Shown here: in pieces, positions 3,154-25,480 of the stretch | Layout of the letters: each line of letters begins with the position of its first letter | Position numbering within the stretch: the first letter of the stretch is position 1 | NCBI GenBank assembly: GCA_033297075.1 | Contig: MU858097.1 | Span: 1-64,000, forward strand | Reading direction: 5' to 3' | From: Rhypophila decipiens | Taxonomy: Eukaryota; Ascomycota; Sordariomycetes; Sordariales; Naviculisporaceae | DNA length: 64,000 nt | Position numbers and translations under genes: made by a program | Notes under the pieces: model-generated | Database searches by the model: none | Told to the model about the DNA's origin: nothing | The model's input: the letters and a program-made list of their open reading frames with translations, nothing else

Positions 3154-3823
3154 AGCAAGCTGGGTGGATTTGATAACCAGGGACATATTAAAGAGTATAG
3201 TCCGAATAGACGACGACGAGGGCTAGGATGCGTGCGGCTTTCTCCGTCATGGGTAGGTATAACCTATCACCTCGGTTCTCAGACGATCAAGGAGAACGGG
3301 GATAAACACTCGCACTATTTAGGTTATCATATTAGTCATAATTGTTCTCGTGTCGTGTCGACTGGTGACCAAAAGGAGGGTTATGCAATGCAGTGTTTAC
3401 TCACGAAGTCGTATCAGCCCCTCCTCGGGCAACCGGTCTTCCCCGCGGCCCTTCACTGCCGGTCGCCGAAGCGAATGGTCGTGAATAAGCACGAGGTTCG
3501 GATCGTGAGACAAGTGGAGGGATTACACAGAGGCAGTGTTACGTTGCTACTGAATTTGTGCCGACGCGAAACACGAGCGTAATAGCTTGCTATTTTCTTG
3601 TTCGCGATTTTATCAGAGCGAGGAACGGAAGAGCAGTGTTTTGTTGCTGCTGGAGTGGAAAGGGGCCTAGAAAGGCCGTCCCGGCGTCCGCTGGTTTATA
3701 GTTTAGAACAAGAACATACAAGACTCCTTCCATCGTTTCTCCTTTGCCATTCCGTCTTTCCATTCCTCCACCACGTACTTGTAGATCACATATCGATTCC
3801 AAACGTTGCCTCTGCAAACTATA

Positions 3824-4579
3824 ATGGCTACCATAACATCAGAAACCCCAACAGTCGAGATATCACCAGCCCTCAGAACTGCCCTTGGGACGGACGTCTC
3901 TCCCGATTCAAGCCGTATGGCACTTGACAAGGCCATTCTCGACCGGCATGCGTCGCGCTGGTTCACACCGACACCGGTGCCCGCCGTGGCACTTCGGGAG
4001 GCGCTCGCCCTTGCATCGCACGCGCCATCCAACTCCAACATTCAGCCGTGGCGTTTATTTGTCGTCACAGGCTCTGCCCTGGACCGACTCAAGGACGAGC
4101 TCGTCACGGCGTCCTCGGCGGGCGTCGCACCCGCCATCCCGCCGCTTCCGCCAGCCTTCCAGCACTTTCGATCCGAGCTCGGGCAGCAGGTCTACGGCGA
4201 GGGATGGGGCGTGGCGCGAGGGGACGCCGAGGGGAGGAGGGCGGCCGTGCTGCGCAACTTTGAGTTCTTTGGAGCCCCCGTTGGCGTGCTCGCGTGCATC
4301 GACCGATCCCTCACCAAAGCCGACGTCGTCTCGCTGGGCATGTACCTCCAGACGTTCCTGCTGGCGCTGACAGAGCGCGGGATCGGGTCGTGTGTCGAGG
4401 TGTCGGTCGCAGGGTATCCAGAGGTCATCAGTCGCAGCTTGGAGCCCTGGGTGCATATTCCGGCCGAGCTGGAGATTGTCGCTGGGATTGCCGTTGGATA
4501 TGAGGACAAATCGCTACACATCAACCACATCCGCGCGGGACGTGTTTCAATTGAAGACACGGTCACGTTTGTGCAGTAG
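3824..4579 (+). CDS. Nitroreductase-family FMN oxidoreductase
   Basis: A single exon gives 251 residues. The frame stays open upstream to a TTG codon, but the first ATG is at 3824 and is the natural start. The N-terminal half has the FMN-binding nitroreductase pattern: an RHASRWF segment followed by an alpha-helix and then APSNSNIQPWRLFVVTG (about residues 66-82), matching the family's APS-x-N-x-QPW signature. The C-terminal half has the conserved helix of an active dimer and a terminal Gly/Tyr strand. Family members use NAD(P)H and FMN to reduce nitro groups, quinones or enones; substrate unknown. It lies convergent to the first UstYa-like gene with 461 bp between, so it may be a tailoring enzyme of the peptide cluster, but position is the only argument. 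Confidence 0.85.
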   Translation: MATITSETPTVEISPALRTALGTDVSPDSSRMALDKAILDRHASRWFTPTPVPAVALREALALASHAPSNSNIQPWRLFVVTGSALDRLKDELVTASSAGVAPAIPPLPPAFQHFRSELGQQVYGEGWGVARGDAEGRRAAVLRNFEFFGAPVGVLACIDRSLTKADVVSLGMYLQTFLLALTERGIGSCVEVSVAGYPEVISRSLEPWVHIPAELEIVAGIAVGYEDKSLHINHIRAGRVSIEDTVTFVQ

Positions 4580-5040
4580 CCCACTCTACGGGTGTACTGG
4601 TGCAGGTCTTGTCTTGTTTTGAGTGCCGGATGGATGGAGGAAGGTCGAGCGGTGGTTTGGGGTTGGTTCATGGGCAATTTTCTTTTTTTGAAATTGAGAC
4701 GGGACAAGGTGTAGGTAGATTGAATGTTCGTGGAGAGATCCAGTCCTTATACGACGATATTATTACATTGTCTTGGAAGTACTAGTAAAGGGAGTTCTAT
4801 TATCCGGTAATAGTCACTGACATAGCGAGGCACAGAGTCGGAGGGGTATTAGTCGTGTTGTCAATATATACCCAGCATGTGGACAACTTTAGCCCACTTG
4901 ATATTTATTGCATCAAACCTCGGAATCCTTGTAGAAAACACTGTACTTTACTAGGTCTCCCATCTAGTCGACCCTAACCTGCCAACAGGTCCCCGCTAAA
5001 CAGACACTCGACATATTCAACCAAAAGACAGACATGACAT
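4580..5040. other. Convergent intergenic stretch
   Basis: This is the 3' space between the nitroreductase gene and the minus-strand UstYa-like gene. No conserved frame or clear structure is seen. Confidence 0.5.
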
Positions 5041-5827
5041 TCAATACCGGCGGCAACTGGTCCAGGTGGCCCGTACCCAGGTGGGACAGACCATTTCCGG
5101 GGTACAAGCAATGTCCTGATGCATGATGTCGTTGAGCATGACCATGCCGCAGTGGTTGGTGTGGTGCCACTCAGTTAGGTAGCTGTCAATAGGGCGGTGC
5201 TCCAGAATGGCCTTGTGCATCTTTTTCATCATGTACTAAGGCCTCCAAGTCAGCATTCCCTTTCTTCTTCACTTTGCTACTTGGGGCACTCACAAAACAA
5301 TGAACGGTATGATAGTCCTTCTGGGTAAACAGCTTGGGGAAGTCGCCACGGTAAATGATATCCATGTCCACCCGCGTCTCGGGCCGCAGCTTGGGCTCGG
5401 TGTGCCAGCTGAAGTTGGTCTGGGCCATGAACTCGGCGACGAGGTCCGGGTCATAGCACTCGGGCCGCACCCAGATCCAGCTCATGGGGTCGAAGAGGCA
5501 CCCGTGGGATCGCGCCTCGGCCACGGTCTCGCTCGTCCCGCAGTCGCCATAGTCGGCCGTTGCCGCGGCCGACAATTGATGCACACCGGCTGCTGTATAT
5601 GCCAGCGCGGCCAGGCTGGCCAGGACGATGAGGCTCGCTACGAGCTGAGTTAGGCGTCGCGAGAGGCGCGAGCGATGGGAGCGGGTGGTAGTGGTGCAGC
5701 AGTCGGATTTATGTCGGTCCTCGTGGAGAAGCGTCATGTTGGAGCTGTGGTCGTCATCGTCGTCACTCACCCGGAAGCGGGACGCTTCGAATGACGGCTT
5801 GCAGATCGAGTCGCGGTTGGAAGACAT
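5041..5827 (-). CDS. UstYa-like (DUF3328) protein, type 1, copy A
   Basis: Exons 5827-5294 and 5235-5041 join in phase 0 across a 58-nt GTGAGT...TTAG intron to give 242 residues. A charged cytosolic N-terminus is followed by one membrane segment (about 61-80), then the lumenal signature CG-x-S with EA-x4-C-x-FDP (95-114), and the two copper/iron-type motifs HTVHC (173-177) and HTNHC (203-207). The first motif is split from its following helix by the intron, which supports the splice. UstYa-like proteins oxidise and cyclise peptide precursors in ustiloxin-type pathways. It shares a promoter region with gene B (716 bp, divergent). The CG...CxFD subfamily is a distinct clade within the wider family, shared here only with copy D. 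Confidence 0.85.
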
Positions 5828-6543
5828 GGAGTTGTTAGTAGTCTTGGGCTAGGTGGTTGTTTTGCAGGGTAGTGGGATGGAGGGAGGTGCGAGAAGTGAA
5901 GACTGGTAGGTAGAAGGAAATGGGAGCAAGGCAGAGAGTCAAACGAGATGAGTGACCCTAACCCGTAAGCAAGCGAGGAGGTCCAGACGCTTGCTTGAAG
6001 TGTGTCCAAGGTTAAGGGAGCAGCAGTCATTTCATCAGCCATCCGGCTGGTCGCTCCAAGGAAATTCATGCTGCGGTAAACCGCGGTGAAGCAACTTGAA
6101 GCTCGACTGTGCCTTTCCATCGGTTCCATCTCGGTGAGTTTCGAAAAAGGTTACCTTGTTTTCGTGTTGTTCATCCAGCTTCCTCTTTCATCATCGAGCG
6201 CCAGGCATGATCCACGAGGCCGTTGGGGCGCATTCGGCCCAACTGAACATGAAGCATATCGCTCCGTTGGTCTATACGTGTAAAAAGGATCCGCATGACT
6301 TATATGGCCGGGGATGTGCTACGTGCCGCATGCGGCTCAGCACCGAATCTCACCCACCACCGTTTTCACCACCGTTTCAGTCACTATCCATATGCATGCC
6401 AGTAGAATCCTTGGCAGAGTAGCCCTGGAGGTAGAGAGAGAGGTTAGTAGAGCGTCCGTCCACTCCTCTGTTTCCCAGCGACAGACCCGCCTCTTACCAT
6501 TAAACCTCAACACTTATGTCTTGCTGATCGCGACGTGGTCACA
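5828..6543. promoter_or_regulatory. Divergent promoter region of UstYa-like genes A and B
   Basis: The 716 bp between two start codons that point away from each other must hold both promoters. No single operator stands out; a TATA-like TTATAT occurs near 6300 on the plus side. Coregulation of A and B is inferred from the arrangement. Confidence 0.55.
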
Positions 6544-7579
6544 ATGAAGCCTGAATATTCTCAACTTACCAGCCGAGACGACCAAGATACTTTGTCCGAG
6601 TGTTCTGGCGAGGTTCAAAGACGTCGCACGCGTCCAGCATGTTGGAAATTCTTCTTGTATCCCCTGGTGCCGTGGACGCTCTGTCTCATCCTCGCTGTCC
6701 TCTCGCTCTTCCTTGCCGTGGCGCTGGACCGAAATGTCCAGACCCACGCCCTAGGCACGTTTGCCAAGGGATATTCGACCGACTTTAGTAAGACATCATT
6801 GATAGAAAACTACAAATGAGCTAACTCGGATGCCAGTCACGGCAAGAAAACTGATACGGGTCGCCCAGACGTCCTTCACTGGCGGCCCGGCATTTGACGA
6901 CGACGGCAACATGTTTGTCCCGCACCCTTCGCCCAAGCGGTTTGTTGGCGATCCGGCTGTTTATCCCGACATTGACTACAACTGGAATAACCTGACCTGG
7001 GGTGAGCTTCCTTGGGATAAAAGAGAGATGGCTTTTCTAATGGAAAGGGAGTAGGTCGATATGTCTTGATCACCAAGGACGAAGCGGCCGCAACATGGGG
7101 TGACGAGAATTTTGCGCAGTACTGGGACAAGCAGAGGGGGGGATATGTTAGCGGGTATGTTGTTCTTACTCTGGATACATACCTACTGTCTGATGTACTG
7201 AACTATCCTGGGCAGATTCGACATGTTCCATACGCTCCACTGCCTAAACAACCTCCGAAAGGCGCTTAACCCGGCCTATTACGGCACTGTAGCCGAGATC
7301 GGTCACGGGGCATCGCCCAAGGGCCATGATGGCTCCCGCACTCGCGCAAGGTCTGAGGAAGAAGGGGGCTTCCTGCATCAGGACCACTGCATCGAGCAGA
7401 TCCGCCAGTACGTCATGTGCTCGGGTGACATGACGCCCATCCCGACCAAGTATTATCCCGGCCTGGGCCGCAACTACGTCGAGTCGGATGTGCCGCATAC
7501 CTGTCGAAACTTTGACCTTCTGCATGACTGGATGGTGGATCGCTATGACGGGGCGGGTGCGGTGAAGCCGGTGATGTAG
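6544..7579 (+). CDS. UstYa-like (DUF3328) protein, type 2, copy B
   Basis: Four exons (6544-6787, 6837-7001, 7055-7154, 7216-7579) join in consistent phase to 290 residues. The frame is open from a GTG at 6535 but the first ATG is 6544. A single membrane segment lies at about 36-60. The lumenal domain carries HTLHC (175-179), followed by the LNNLRKAL helix, and HQDHC (224-228), followed by IEQIRQYVMCSGDMTPIP, the classic UstYa layout. The first intron is in phase 1 about 20 residues after the membrane segment, as in copy C. Introns are 49, 53 and 61 nt, the first with a GCTAAC branch site. Predicted role: oxidative modification of the neighbouring precursor peptide in the secretory pathway. 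Confidence 0.9.
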
Positions 7580-7914
7580 CAGCTAAGACTGTTGAACCAG
7601 TCGGTGGAAGTTGGATTATAAGGATATGAGACGAAGGCTTACACGCCTCCAGACTGTACTGTCTTTCTGCTTTCTCTTCTCTCCTTTAAAATAGATTAAT
7701 CCAAGACAATTTATTACTCTCACCAAACAGATGCTAAATAAATGGTATTATCATGTTTCATTCTTCCGTGATTAGTCCTTAAAGATCGATCATCTCACAG
7801 ATTGTTTTTGTCCACCATCATATTTCATGCGGTTACAGTAGCAAAAGAGAACTCCCGTATTGTCTGACTACATGTACTAAAAAGAAGACACGGTGACACA
7901 TGGCCAACCAACCC
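7580..7914. other. Convergent 3' region, axis of symmetry
   Basis: The 335 bp between the stop codons of copies B and C are AT-rich and non-coding. This is the midpoint of the mirror-image arrangement of the four UstYa-like genes. No inverted repeat was seen at the axis. Confidence 0.5.
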
Positions 7915-8882
7915 TCACAAAGCGCCCTGTTGAAAGGCCTTGACACGCAGCATATACTCCTCCTGGGGAAAGTGGCGGTCCGGATGCAACATCCACTCGC
8001 TAAGCTTATCAAAGTCGCGGCACACGTGCGTGGTATGAGCATCCGGGAAGTTGCCCTGCACCCGCTCGTGAAACTTCCAGGGGATGGTGCTCACGTCGGC
8101 GTAGCACATGATGGTCTGCCGCAAGTTGTCGATGCAGTGCTCGAGATGGATCCAGTACTCCTTCTTTGCAGCCGGCGACATGCCGCCGTCGGCGCCGTAA
8201 CGGTCTGGGTACAGATGCTTGCGCACGAGGTCGAGGCAGTGCAGCTGGTGGTAGACCTCGAGCCCGGTGATGTAGAAGCCCTCGTCGCCGGGGATGGGCA
8301 GCGTGCTGTTGGGCAGCCGGTCCGCATCGGCGCTCGGGATCTTGATCACCCCGACGTCGACGTACAGGTCGTGCCAGGCCCGGTCAACGTCGTCGTCGGG
8401 TGGGCCTTGCCACTTGGTCCGGTCCGCGTGGAAGTTGTTGCGGAATACAACCTCTTTGTACTCGAGGGCCTCGAGTGCCGGCGAGAAAACCTCTGGGGTC
8501 CTGTCGTAGACTCATTTAATCTTGTCTAGTGCGTAGTCTGGTGGTAAACAAATCAGCTTCCCTTCCATGGTTGATTCGCGGTGAACTTGGTGTAATTACC
8601 ATGGACCTTGGCGGCGTCTGAAATATGCCAGAACACATATTCCCTGGAAATCCAGACGAGTGACACGACTACCAATAAGCTGGCTAATGCCGCCGTTGAT
8701 AGCTTGGACCGACGACGAGCCCGGAAAAGCTCGGCACGGATGGCATCCAGCTCGGAGCCGGCGAGGAATGTTTCCCGCGAGTCGGAAGAGTCGCGAAGAG
8801 ATTCGTACACGATATTCTTCTCTGCGTTGCTTGAGAGAGCCTTATTTTTAATGTGAGACAGGGCCTTCGTAAACCTCTCCAT
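7915..8882 (-). CDS. UstYa-like (DUF3328) protein, type 2, copy C
   Basis: Exons 8882-8600 and 8510-7915 join across an 89-nt intron (GTAATT donor, phase 1) to 292 residues. The membrane segment is at about 61-79. The lumenal part has the family landmarks in order: PALEALEY, a W-x8-aspartate-rich stretch, GFYITGLEVYHQLHC (motif at 182-186), and HLEHC (216-220) followed by IDNLRQTIMCYADVSTIPW. This is the closest to textbook UstYa of the four. The phase-1 intron after the membrane segment matches the first intron of copy B, which argues for common descent. It shares a divergent promoter region with copy D. Confidence 0.9.
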
Positions 8883-9641
8883 CGTGGTGGGTGTTAGTTG
8901 TGCGATTATGCTGACTCTGACCTTGGTAGAGTTTGTCCCTTGTTCAAGAGATAAAACAAAAAAGTCGGGATAAGATAGGGCATTCGAAGATCGAGGGATT
9001 CACTGAGCAGGGCAATCCGTGCAACCCGTGCAGTGACAGAAAGTTATGTGTCATTGAGCATTACAACAGTTTGAACTATGTGGTCAATGCACCGTTTTCC
9101 CTCCGTTTCCAGATCCAAGGCTGGCTGCAAGCCAACGCCCAACCTGCTCCCAAAACCGGCAGGAGACATGTCAAAGGGAGGTTTTCTCCTTCCTATTCAG
9201 GATTCTAAACAGCCTTTCTGATGGGTACTTTTGTATTCCCATCCAGGTAATTGTGACGAATCTGGAACCAACGCAACACATCATGCGCCAAAGACCTTAA
9301 AAAGGAAGCTAGATTCAATGGTGACGACCAGCATTGAACTGCGTGTCATATAGTGCTACGTGGCAGTGGCACTGCCATGACACCAGGGGTGTTCAAGACA
9401 AAAGTTCCTTGGTCCGATAAGTAGTGTGCTAGGGAGAATTGGAAGTTGGCTGATGTCCCATGACACCTCGGACACGGCCTTGACCAACCTTCAAATCCTA
9501 CTGTGAGGACGAAACGAACGGAACTGGGTAGAATAACTTGGGTCTTCACACTTTGTACTTTGTTACTATCCAGCACGAGAGTCCGCCGCGATCTGTTCTC
9601 ACTTGCACGAATAACCGGCCGACGCAAAACAAACTCTTCTC
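8883..9641. promoter_or_regulatory. Divergent promoter region of UstYa-like genes C and D
   Basis: The 759 bp between divergent starts hold both promoters. No TATA box or palindromic operator is convincing enough to place. Confidence 0.55.
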
Positions 9642-10385
9642 ATGGCGAATTTTGCGTACCGTAGCCTCCCCAACAAGCCGTGCCCTTCTCACCCCGGCAT
9701 ACAGGACCTTTGTCCGGAGGACGGTAAACTGCAACGACGCAGTGAGAAATTCTCAATCTCCTTGTCCTCCCGAGCCGCTTGGATGGGTTTCACTGCCATT
9801 ATATCATTCATTACAGCATCTCTCATCGTCTACGCCTTGACAACAGCCACCGCCAAGAACCCCTTGAGTCATGCCCGTTTGGGTCTAGAAGAATGTGGCC
9901 TATCCCCTGGTGAGGCACGCAAAAACAAGTGCATATTCGACCCCATCATCATGGGCTGGGTGCCGGGCAGATGCCACGACGCCGACCTGGCCCGAGACTT
10001 TATGAGCCGCAGGAACTGGACATTTCACCGGACGCCTGATGCCAACATGAACAGCAAAACAGACCATGTGATGGGAATACACGACCTTCTGGCGGGCGAC
10101 TGGGATTTTCTCTACGTAGAGCCCCAGTTCTACATCCACCAATGCCTGTATACGTGGAAGAAGACGTGGCGGGCCGCGGTAGACGCCGCCGTCGTGGTGG
10201 ATGGCTATCTCGCCGACGAGCATCACACGAATCACTGCCAGATGCTCATCAGCCAAGGGCCGGAGCGGGAGAAGAACTTGTATATGAAGTATGCAAGTTG
10301 TTCGTGGGGCAAGCATGGGAGTGCTGGCCGGTTTGGGTGGTATAGAGTTATCAAGGGGGAGCGCGTTTATAGGTTGGATGTGTGA
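9642..10385 (+). CDS. UstYa-like (DUF3328) protein, type 1, copy D
   Basis: One uninterrupted exon gives 247 residues starting at ATG 9642. Membrane segment at about 46-66, then CGLSPGEARKNKCIFDP (85-101), the same CG...EA...CxFD signature as copy A. The second metal motif HTNHC (195-199) is intact, but the first is changed: where copy A has HTVHC this protein has YIHQC (164-168), so both family histidines are replaced, with one histidine moved next to the cysteine. The following YTWKKTWRAAV helix still aligns with copy A. It could be a catalytically altered or partner subunit. It lacks the intron that splits the first motif in copy A. Confidence 0.85.
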   Translation: MANFAYRSLPNKPCPSHPGIQDLCPEDGKLQRRSEKFSISLSSRAAWMGFTAIISFITASLIVYALTTATAKNPLSHARLGLEECGLSPGEARKNKCIFDPIIMGWVPGRCHDADLARDFMSRRNWTFHRTPDANMNSKTDHVMGIHDLLAGDWDFLYVEPQFYIHQCLYTWKKTWRAAVDAAVVVDGYLADEHHTNHCQMLISQGPEREKNLYMKYASCSWGKHGSAGRFGWYRVIKGERVYRLDV

Positions 10386-10807
10386 ATGACCTGTTCAGGT
10401 ATATGAAACTCTATGTTTAGTTATGTTATTTTCGTAGTCAAATAGTCCTACTTCCTCTACCTGGCAGTAAATAGTGGTGTCACAGCTTGTGATAGATACG
10501 TAGGCTGGATATCTAGCGTAAGGTACAGTGATAAACCAGAAGCTGATCGCTATATGTTGTAAGTTTTGCTAAAACTTCACACCACATCATCATATACAAC
10601 AAGACCAACAGATGTAATATAGATTGTGGTTATTCTGTCTGCTTATATATAAACCCGTGATGCGACTAACCTCCCTGATTAAATAGCGTCCCGACCATAC
10701 CTCTGTGACTGGAGATGAAAAAGCGCAGAGCAAAGTATCAGGGAGACTATATATGTTAGTAAAGATTTGAAATGGGTACGAAAATGGATATATCCTACCA
10801 GTATTAA
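10386..10807. other. Convergent intergenic stretch
   Basis: This 3' space between copy D and the precursor gene is AT-rich and non-coding. Confidence 0.5.
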
Positions 10808-11107
10808 TCACTTGGAGACATCAGCCCAAGTAACGACGCCTGCGGCCGAGTTGTCGGTGCTCTCGGCCCGCTTAGACACATCAGCCCAAGTAACCACGCC
10901 AGCAGCGGAGTTGTCGGTGCTTTCGGACCGCTTGGACACGTCGGCCCAAGTCACGACACCGGCAGCAGAGCTGTCGGTATTTTCAGCCCGCTTGCTAACG
11001 TCGGCCCAAGTGACGACGCCAGCGGCCGAGTTGTCGGTAGCCTCGTGAGCCACAGGGGCGGCGAACACGCCGGTGCTGGAAACGAGGGCGATGATGGCGA
11101 ACTTCAT
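10808..11107 (-). CDS. Secreted RiPP precursor with four Kex2-bounded repeats
   Basis: One exon encodes 99 residues. Residues 1-16 are a signal peptide ending GVFA. The rest is four units: 17-40, 41-60, 61-80 and 81-99, the first three ending in the Kex2 site Lys-Arg and the last ending in Lys followed by the stop. Each unit has a variable acidic leader (for example AESTDN) and an invariant core SAAGVVTWADVSK. The only aromatic residue of the units is Trp; there is no Tyr, Phe, Cys or Met. Ten of the 13 core codons differ silently between copies, so the peptide is kept by selection and not merely by recent duplication. The layout matches precursors of ustiloxin-type RiPPs and the adjacent UstYa-like genes support that role. 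Alternatives are a linear repeated secreted peptide or pheromone; the Cys-containing alpha-pheromone pattern is absent. Confidence 0.85.
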   Translation of the reverse strand: MKFAIIALVSSTGVFAAPVAHEATDNSAAGVVTWADVSKRAENTDSSAAGVVTWADVSKRSESTDNSAAGVVTWADVSKRAESTDNSAAGVVTWADVSK

Positions 11108-12161
11108 GATGTGGATTGTTTGAATAGTTACTTAAAGAGGTAGGTATTGATGGAACTGCAAGTCGACGAGCTGAGAAGTAGTTCAAGGTGGCCCTTAGTA
11201 GAGATAAGATCCTATAACCTGGGGACGTTTGGAGGCTTTCGTCTGCTACTTAAGCCGAGGGAGGGCGGATGAAGGGGCTGCATACATGCTCACCTAGGTC
11301 TATAGGGGCGTCCTTTGTTTGGAAGGAACTGGCACCGAATATATCCTCCAACGGTAACGTTACACTTCAAGTTACACAACTCTGGATACTTATCTTGAGA
11401 ATCTAAACCGGGCGTGTTCATGCCTGCCTAATCCGGCCAGCGGCGAAGCGGCCTCGACTAAAGATTCAACACGGCTCTCTGCATGTAAATGTTGTTAGTG
11501 TCAGGCTGCTGTCACAATATTCGTGCCTCCGTTTTGTCGTCAAACCGGAGGAAATAAGGCTCGGCATTAAGCAGAGAGATTCGTCGCCGCAGCCCTACGC
11601 CTGGACTGCTGCCTCCTAGCTTACGTTATATTAGTTTCCTTGGCTGCATGGTAATATGTTGTCGTCGCTGACTGGGTACCATTGCCGAGGGCGTTCGGTA
11701 GGGATTCCAGACGCCGCGAGGTTGCGCACCAACACGCCCTTCACGTTAATCAAGTTCGTTTATATCCATGACCGCCGGGTTGCACACCAACACGCCCCTC
11801 ACTTTAACCAAGTTCATTTATATCCATGACCTTGCCTCATCGTGATTGGGCGACCGGCAAAGACACAATCACAAAAGTACCCCCGCCCCCCTCTCAAGCG
11901 CGGCATTATCCTCTTGATGGTGAATTGTTGCGTTGTCCATCCCAACGTCTTCAATGCAATTTTAGGCAACCAACAAGAATCAAGACTTTTTGAATGAGTT
12001 CCGTGGATAACACTGGTTTGGGACAATTTTGATCCTATGACCTTAGATGCTCTGGTGTCACCAACACTAGCTAGACACGCAAGCCCGCCTCATATCTCCC
12101 AGCTTCCACCTGGGCCTCTTTCCTCTTCGAATGCTAAATCAGGGATCCTCCACCAAAAGTC
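11108..12161. promoter_or_regulatory. Promoter region between precursor and GFA gene
   Basis: About 1.05 kb separates the divergent starts. On the minus strand a TATA-like TTATAGG sits near 11214, roughly 110 nt before the precursor ATG. The region also holds a tandem duplication at 11720-11831. The precursor itself is expected to need a strong promoter; nothing else specific is recognisable. Confidence 0.45.
11720..11831. repeat. Tandem duplication, 58-bp period
   Basis: Two 54-bp copies (11720-11773 and 11778-11831) starting GGTTGC and ending ATATCCATGACC differ at seven positions, mostly C/T or G/A changes. It lies in the region shared by the precursor and the GFA gene promoters. Confidence 0.8.
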
Positions 12162-23581: not shown

Positions 23582-25480
23582 TTATTCCCGCAGTTCATGA
23601 AACTGCAACCACAGCTGGTTACCCTTCGGCCCAGCAGAGAACCCTTCATCCTGCTCGAGGACCTTATCATTGCCATTCCTGTCCGCACCAACAAGCTCGA
23701 CAGAGTAGCGGAGATAGATCGCCGCAACCACGAGTTTGATAGCTGTCAAGTTCGATCCAAGTGTTAGCATAACTCTTCTCTTTTGCAATTCTTTTTGGGA
23801 TGATACCACGAGAAAAGCAACAGAGGCTAGGTAGACTCACAAACCAAAGCAAAGTTCTTGCCCAGACACATCCTCCCGCCGCTACCAAAAGCCCAGAACC
23901 ACCGTCTCATCTCAATCAATCGATCCTCATCGGCATCTATCCATCTGCGTGGAATCCATTCCTCCGGGCAGGGATAGACATTCTCATTGCGGTGTAAAGT
24001 ACAGGCATAAGACTGGACTCTCGTCCCTGGGGGGAGGGCATAGCCGTCTATGGTGCAACTAATTCCATTTCTTCCGTGTCCGCTGGTATTTGGGGCCGGG
24101 GGCGTGTATCGTGCCTGAGGTCCTCCCACGGGCGGGTATAACCGTAGTGTCTCGGTAATAACTGCCTCCAGGAGGGGCAAGGAGTCCAACTCTTTTAGCG
24201 AGACATTGGAAAAGATTTCCTTCAGCTCAGCAACACCGGTCACGGCCTGACTTGGGAGCAAGCTGGCCAGCTCAGCCCTCAACTGGGCTTGAATAGCCGG
24301 GTTCCTCGCAAGCTCGTAATGCAAAAAGGTCAACGCAATCCCGCTCGTCTCGATTGCTGCCACGGTCTCGTCGTACATGTCTGATGCGATCTGCAGGCGG
24401 TGGTCATACTTCTGCTCCTTCTCCGCCCTCCCGTCAGTACCTTCAAGTTGCCAGAAAGTCGGCCCCAGAGGGGGAGTAGGCGCATCAGTCATGAAACTTC
24501 TACTCCCAAACCGTCCATACTTCTCCTTGGCAATCGCAAAGATAGTAGGCCAGTTGAGGCCCATCAAAGAGGACGATGAGGAGATTACCTCAGCAGCACG
24601 ATCATACCTCTCTATGAAGTACTTCTCCAACGCTACCCGAGACCGTTCACACCACTCGGGCACAAGCCGTATTCCCATCCTCAATAAACCGTTCGTCAGC
24701 TTGGGTAACTCGACCTCCCAAAAGACGGTATACGGCCTCGGCGCAAAAAAGTGATACAAAAGCCAGTTTCTAGCTTCTGAATCGCCAACAAAATTCGTGC
24801 CGAGGTCTTCGCCCAGCTGATAGGCAGTAAATGAATCAAGCGAGTAGGCGTAATTCAGAGGGTGAATATCTACCGGTGTTTTTTGATCCGCACTATGTTG
24901 AAGTATCGGAAAGAGATTATTGAAGATTACGTTTGCTGTAGTCTGGGGGATTGCTTGGGCCGCGAGGATCGTGGATTTAGAATACGCTTGAGTCAAGAGT
25001 TTCTTGCGCTGGTAGTGTTCTCTCGAGGAGCGGGTTGTGAAGATGTTGTCTACCCTGTACGTTTTCCCATCGAGCCAGTCAGTCTGGGTTGGGTTTAAGG
25101 AGGGTGGTGGGAGAGCTAATGACATACCCGAAATTGGAGAAGCGGTTAAAGTACCACTCTGTCTTGGGGAAATCGCCATTGTATATAGTTTTCAGGCCGT
25201 CGCTGGAGTTGACGCTCACTTCGTTTGGTCCGAGAAGCACCAACGGGCCATGTTTGGCGTGCAGCTTTTGGACTGCTCTGTTTTCTGTGTTGGTGTACTT
25301 GATGTAGAAGCTGTAAAGGGGCAGGATCCGGGCATGCCATCTTGCAGCTGGGATCTTGGCAAATGGTGAGAGGATCAAAGGATAAATAAGAAAGTTGTAG
25401 AGTCCAAGAAATGTAGAAACTATGGCTGCCGCAAAGGCCACGGATATGACCAACAGACTGGGCTCGAATGACAACGCCAT
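23582..25480 (-). CDS. Cytochrome P450 monooxygenase
   Basis: Exons 25480-25128, 25054-23841 and 23742-23582 give 575 residues with consistent phase. An N-terminal hydrophobic anchor (about 9-30) targets it to the ER. Landmarks: IFTTRSSREH in the early helix region, ETSGIALTFLHYEL in helix I (the usual A/G-G-x-D/E-T core is changed), ETLRLYPP for ExxR, PEEWIPRRW, and the heme loop FGSGGRMCLGKNFA with the Cys ligand. The last splice is fixed by reading GKNFALVSIKLVVAAIYLRY. Its substrate is unknown; it resembles fungal secondary-metabolism P450s. It is about 12 kb from the peptide cluster, so a link is not supported. Confidence 0.9.

Follow-up and report, generated by a model that had tools for sequence, protein, structure and literature searches.

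The first 64,000 nucleotides of contig MU858097.1 (C53) of the ascomycete Rhypophila decipiens (assembly size 45.7 Mb), hereafter called the window, carry at about 5041-11107 a compact group of five genes, composed of a precursor peptide gene and four genes encoding UstYa-type (DUF3328) proteins (g2-g5). To judge from its sequence, this group very probably constitutes a dikaritin-type cluster for a ribosomally synthesized and post-translationally modified peptide (RiPP), and it most likely directs the synthesis of an oxidized peptide from a repeated core. The secreted Kex2-repeat precursor lies beside UstYa genes and the same association is repeated at other loci of the genome, which lends good support to the RiPP interpretation offered in a first-pass annotation of the window. 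The gene coordinates given there were also right. By gene models built in this analysis, g2, g3 and g4 have one, three and one introns, respectively; the acceptor site of the g4 intron was picked by reading frame only. The genes of the region, including an adjoining nitroreductase gene that is excluded from the cluster, are as follows:

3824..4579 (+), nitroreductase-family flavin mononucleotide (FMN) oxidoreductase, 251 aa, PF00881
5041..5827 (-), g2, divergent DUF3328/UstYa-type protein, 242 aa, one intron (5293-5236)
6544..7579 (+), g3, canonical UstYa protein (PF11807), 290 aa, three introns
7915..8882 (-), g4, canonical UstYa protein (PF11807), 292 aa, one intron (8599-8511)
9642..10385 (+), g5, divergent DUF3328/UstYa-type membrane protein, 247 aa, intronless, no Pfam match
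10808..11107 (-), precursor peptide gene, 99 aa, four 20-residue units

Precursor peptide and recurrence of its pairing with UstYa genes

The precursor was described in the first-pass annotation as a secreted protein of 99 residues with four units, and this description stands (window 11107..10808, minus strand, three KR junctions). It begins with a signal-like N-terminus (MKFAIIALVSSTGVFAAP; judged by eye, not by a predictor), and its body is composed of four 20-residue units with KR (a Kex2-type site) at the three junctions; unit 1 directly follows the signal-like N-terminus without a KR of its own and the last unit ends in K-stop. The units are underlain by a 60-bp tandem repeat at 10811-11038. 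A constant part of 13 amino acids, SAAGVVTWADVSK, is the same in all four units, and the seven residues preceding it include four variable positions. Codons differ among the copies at 10 of the 13 constant positions, where 16 or more nucleotide changes have left zero amino acid differences, an outcome with a naive probability of about 3e-10 (changes taken as random and independent; order of magnitude only). This codon divergence without residue change argues for selection on the constant part or for a process that maintains its uniformity. Since repeats within one gene cannot by themselves separate a core from a recognition sequence, SAAGVVTWADVSK is treated as a putative excised core only, and the constant stretch could include a recognition sequence as well. 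The units contain no Cys and no Tyr, and Trp is their sole aromatic residue. No second copy of the precursor was found elsewhere in the genome.

Other tandem repeats of this contig comprise a 58-base unit upstream of the precursor gene (window 11720-11831; about 1.9 copies, 90% matches) and, in the next stretch of the contig (L040; C53:68798-69178), a 60-base unit in 6.3 copies.

The gene nearest to the precursor is g5 (0.4 kb), followed by g4 (about 1.9 kb) and g3 (about 3.2 kb), and the four UstYa-type genes together span about 6 kb. The first-pass annotation had counted all four as UstYa-like. This holds for g3 and g4, which score 114.9 and 181.7 bits, respectively, against PF11807 (cut-off 25) and carry the copper motifs HTLHC...HQDHC (g3) and HQLHC...HLEHC (g4), but g2 and g5 are divergent proteins with no Pfam match, and g5 is devoid of half of the copper ligands. 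A hydrophobic stretch of 20 residues, beginning at residue 41-63, is present in all four, and both HxxHC motifs occur in three of them (g2, g3 and g4); g5 has the second one only.

The pairing of repeat precursors with UstYa genes is not confined to the window. In the genome, 67 matches to PF11807 (counted by exon) were found. We read about 195 kb, made up of a further nine UstYa loci plus the 10 kb that follow the window on its contig, and then another 17 kb at three additional UstYa places. Kex2-repeat precursors were found at 7 of the 13 UstYa places read, i.e., at 6 of 12 when the window is excluded, and the same repeat scan gave no precursor in 792 frames of a 62-kb control without UstYa matches. 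The scan also gave none at C251, C282 and C156, or in three extra stretches of C3/C155, although spliced precursors can escape it. It returned 13 rows, of which six were accepted (L024, L030, L034, the L036 frame 3420-3719, the forward frame of L039, and the window); those dropped were L025 (a reverse frame of low complexity), two rows of L032 with two copies each, a second frame of L036 and two reverse frames of L039. The precursor of L021 (C326), whose repeat copies are spread over several frames, was added by hand. The precursors outside the window are the following:

C21, units TNSYPKYGKAEDYEAVN, beside UstYa genes
C71, units PLYSLTALVGP, beside UstYa genes
C59:116738-117061 (L034:6738-7061), GPPPPSWKR units with EA/EP spacers, UstYa match 1.3 kb away
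C306, units YNGDDEGADKK, beside UstYa genes
C167:65524-66252 (L039:5524-6252), many EPAYVWASANHK units, beside UstYa genes
C326:4001..2996 (L021), minus strand, units EYNDNNAVEFKKRGELPTS, beside UstYa genes

Trp is present in three of the seven precursors found in the genome, two of which are without Tyr; the C59 precursor is the second Trp-only precursor, and a signal-like start (MRFSFIAALLAGSALATPV) lies upstream in its frame, past stops. The junctions of the C167 precursor read KKR, KR or KAR after the EPAYVWASANHK units, which leaves a classical Kex2 site at only part of them. The C326 precursor is built differently: each unit EYNDNNAVEFKKRGELPTS is an exon of its own, with five exons of exactly 57 bases flanked by a signal exon and a longer first unit exon on one side and a last exon on the other, all joined in frame at GT..AG borders. 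Gain or skipping of such an exon would alter the number of cores without a frame shift. A single literature search showed, among the papers listed, no description of a Kex2-repeat precursor with one unit per exon.

The divergent g2/g5 branch and the altered copper motif of g5

Neither g2 nor g5 matches any Pfam family at E up to 1 or any NCBIfam model better than E 0.05. Their sequences, 33% identical over 150 aa, mark them as paralogues, and they are probably only distant relatives of UstYa. The motifs of g2 are complete (HTVHC...HTNHC). Only three further members of the branch were found in this genome, two of them on C326 and the third on C21, and at each of the three places (window, C21 and C326) a PF11807 gene and a Kex2-repeat precursor adjoin. 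A profile of five g2/g5 members retrieved 42 proteins from a large protein collection, whose named organisms we take to be ascomycete fungi.

A tie of the branch to UstYa is suggested by (i) weak matches to PF11807 in 4 of 17 members scanned (best E 1.2e-4), (ii) a profile comparison with UstYa based on a larger alignment (E 6.5e-5 and a probability of 64% in the region of the motifs), (iii) the two motifs, and (iv) the helices of a structural model. The AlphaFold model of g5 built from 24 sequences has a mean predicted local distance difference test (pLDDT) score of 70.5, and in it residues 41-68, within the hydrophobic stretch, form a helix, with motif 1 and motif 2 borne by helices at 161-182 and 193-205, respectively; a single-sequence model of g5 was poor (pLDDT 41). 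For g2, the transmembrane helix and the motif helices are proposed from hydrophobicity and motif spacing only. Since g2 and g5 have no Pfam match, genes of this type would be overlooked by surveys in which DUF3328 neighbours are counted through Pfam.

One member of the collection, P0042 of Scytalidium lignicola (partial), is a single gene model with a g2/g5-type half and a PF11807 half. The halves may be truly fused, or the annotation may have joined genes that are neighbours; in either case the two branches would be linked.

In two further records, P0012 of Xylaria telfairii and P0013 of Annulohypoxylon stygium, one annotated protein consists of a secreted repeat precursor followed by a g2/g5-type protein, and the precursor parts resemble the C21 precursor (48% over 101 and 62% over 76 residues, respectively). 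These records are most simply seen as two adjoining genes merged by annotation, or else as true fusions. Together with the R. decipiens loci, they bring to at least three the genera in which the g2/g5 branch as a whole adjoins repeat precursors, and they slightly raised our already high confidence that the window encodes an oxidized-peptide pathway.

In g5, motif 1 reads YIHQC in place of HxxHC, and motif 2 (HTNHC) is intact. The pattern YxxQC is shared by 5 of the 42 branch proteins, namely g5 itself (P0002), P0003, P0006, P0008 and P0009; the species named for them besides R. decipiens are Echria macrotheca, Podospora aff. communis PSN243 and Canariomyces notabilis; P0008 is additionally without the first histidine of motif 2. 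The other 37 have at least two HxxHC motifs and no YxxQC (the count for P0042 takes in its UstYa half). In a tree of 17 proteins, in which the deeper branches are long, the five YxxQC proteins form one clade (support 99/100), with the HxxHC-bearing P0004 and P0005 as next relatives. Because the same loss is common to proteins down to about 50% identity, the altered motif of g5 does not represent the decay of a dead gene; g5 is more likely a partner protein or the carrier of an altered metal site.

Proposed pathway and alternatives

The sequence itself shows the precursor architecture, the silent codon divergence, the co-location of the genes, the motifs and the loss shared by g5 and its clade. 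As to processing, copper use and chemistry, and the role of g5 as a partner, we infer the following course. The precursor would enter the secretory pathway, where Kex2 would cleave after KR and Kex1-type trimming would strip the basic residues; this would yield four almost identical peptides, each about 18-19 residues long and containing SAAGVVTWADVSK. Calculated monoisotopic masses of such peptides are, for example, 1906.8908 and 1922.8857 with the C-terminal K, and 1778.7959 and 1794.7908 without it. Oxidation of the peptide would then fall to UstYa-type enzymes that are anchored in the membrane, depend on copper and face the organelle lumen with their catalytic side; the full copper motif is present in g2, g3 and g4. 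Likely outcomes would be a desaturated or hydroxylated Val, Asp or Thr and/or a cross-link through Trp; desaturation is proposed alongside cross-linking because inactivation of phomopsin genes points to three UstYa proteins making dehydro residues (PMC10880069). Lacking both histidines of motif 1, g5 would more likely serve as a structural or regulatory partner, e.g., in a heterodimer with g2, or hold an altered metal site. More tentatively, and with the odds rather against it, g5 may found a conserved YxxQC class of UstYa-type pseudo-enzymes, acting as a heterodimer with a catalytic paralogue like g2 with an altered copper centre that cross-links or dehydrogenates a Trp-only core without a tyrosinase.

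Several results weigh against an oxidized-peptide cluster. No relative of the precursor was found in the protein collection, where lengths of about 54-173 aa were eligible. None of the 60 tyrosinase matches of the genome is located on C53; no methyltransferase, P450, transporter or peptidase was recognized among nine proteins scanned at 3.8-17.1 kb, and ten short frames, located at 0.9-3.6 and 11.4-12.1 kb, contained no recognizable family either. The four cluster promoters share no more words of 8-12 bases than do 300 sets of random segments. As regards the g2/g5 branch, the initial comparison of profiles, built on five sequences, gave a low probability of 12%, the g5 model gave 52 matches among solved structures at E <= 10 and none at E <= 0.001, and a sequence search among solved structures found none of a UstYa protein.

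The nitroreductase named in the first-pass annotation does belong to that family (PF00881, 80 bits), with the FMN nitroreductases 3gr3 and 2wzv as best solved-structure matches, but it is probably a neighbour of the cluster and not one of its genes. A protein search of the R. decipiens genome gave no paralogue at E <= 1e-3, and the one other PF00881 match in the genome, on C30, scores 32 bits (cut-off 23.5). Among the best 120 of its 1276 relatives, the values at the top are 90%, 79% (Cladorrhinum sp. PSN259) and 73%, followed by a drop to 60%. The closest named relative and the close relatives of g5 come from different species, which is why we regard the gene as a neighbour: Echria macrotheca (whose g5 relative stands at 79%), Podospora aff. 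communis PSN243 and Canariomyces notabilis are not named among these best 120 of 1276, nor does the name Cladorrhinum occur among the 42 relatives of g2/g5. Gaps in gene calling could account for the absence of a species from either list. Xylaria telfairii is present in both, with distant relatives on contigs that differ in length. A role as a pathway enzyme, for example as a flavin dehydrogenase making dehydro-Trp or as an electron supplier to the copper enzymes, is thus unlikely, even though the gene is only 0.46 kb from g2 and nitroreductase-fold peptide dehydrogenases, such as albonoursin synthase, exist. An accessory protein delivering electrons or Cu(I) has been proposed in the work on the UstYa-family enzyme CctR (PMC12435403).

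We consider it improbable that the precursor gives rise to unmodified secreted peptides, of the signalling or pheromone-like type of Kex2-processed repeat proteins (KEPs), and that the UstYa-type neighbours are coincidental. The absence of Tyr from the core would suit such peptides, as would the survey count of 6120 among 7878 catalogued KEPs without a DUF3328 neighbour (PMC7329392), but four UstYa-type genes lie within about 6 kb of sequence, the nearest of them adjoining the precursor, and the pairing that recurs at other loci was absent from the control. In the same catalogue, 98.6% of 216 pheromone-type KEPs are without a DUF3328 neighbour (PMC7329392).

Still less probable, and in fact very unlikely, is that the UstYa-type enzymes of the window serve another scaffold, encoded past the contig end, with the precursor being independent of them. 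The window does start at base 1 of C53, only 3.8 kb from the nitroreductase gene, and UstYa proteins also work in a non-ribosomal pathway, that of cyclochlorotine (PMC12435403). However, the precursor is located on the opposite side of the cluster, adjoining g5, no synthetase was found among the proteins scanned to the right, and the other g2/g5-type genes are likewise situated beside repeat precursors. A fungal alpha-pheromone precursor was rejected, since UstYa genes adjoin and the units lack the Cys that known alpha-pheromones of Sordariales carry.

A cytochrome P450 gene (PF00067; window 23830-25191) was not counted in the cluster; about 13 kb separate it from the precursor, and DnaJ-like, SNF2-type and ankyrin genes occupy this interval. 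The window also encodes a LysM protein (PF01476; 30201-30881), and no evidence obtained here ties either gene to the cluster.

The window brings together two canonical UstYa copies, a divergent intact one and one in which half of the ligands are lost, beside a four-unit precursor with a single kind of aromatic residue. The cluster is compact and its precursor simple, so the share of each UstYa-type protein should be separable by single deletions.

Comparison with known systems

A survey of fungal genomes catalogued 7878 KEPs in 1345 of 1461 strains, 1758 of them near DUF3328 genes at a mean of 3.09 genes, and 2560 of the 7878 without a homologue (Umemura 2020; PMC7329392). By the figures of this survey, the content rates of Y and W in the repeats of the 1758 DUF3328-linked KEPs are 65.6% and 20.5%, respectively, and that of W is 24.5% in the other 6120 (PMC7329392). 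The window locus fits the survey's description of KEPs with DUF3328 neighbours (PMC7329392). Given the homologue-free KEPs and the W content of the DUF3328-linked set, a KEP that contains Trp, lacks homologues and neighbours UstYa genes belongs to an already known kind, of which the window locus is a new member. The Trp-only core, which the first-pass annotation named in calling the cluster a candidate undescribed one, is thus not a new departure, the more so as the C59 precursor is a second example in the same genome.

A newer definition of dikaritins, in which DUF3328 is the class-defining enzyme (PMC12048977), takes in the window locus, where a secreted Kex2-repeat precursor is found near g3 and g4. 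The older five-gene definition (Ding et al., quoted in PMC12048977), with tyrosinase, methyltransferase and a transporter or peptidase, leaves it out. The ustiloxin, phomopsin and asperipin-2a systems are alike in having a secreted Kex2 repeat precursor with one or more DUF3328 (UstYa) proteins nearby, and the asperipin-2a cluster is likewise small, with four genes and no tyrosinase (PMC6514808). The window locus differs from these systems in a core without Tyr, a contig without a tyrosinase match, and two divergent DUF3328-type proteins, one of which is missing motif 1.

The closest point of reference for the enzymes is CctR, a UstYa-family (DUF3328) protein reported in 2025 as a binuclear copper enzyme, with the same proposed for the whole family (PMC12435403). 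In CctR, the His and Cys residues of HxxHC(x)nHxxHC are reported to hold two coppers, and the Ala mutants described lost all activity (PMC12435403). It shares with the window proteins, as predicted for the latter from sequence or model, the paired motif helices, the single N-terminal transmembrane helix and the lumenal domain (PMC12435403). The first HxxHC of CctR corresponds to YxxQC in the g5 clade. The least expected feature of the cluster is g5, and the interest of the locus rests on this YxxQC protein more than on Trp.

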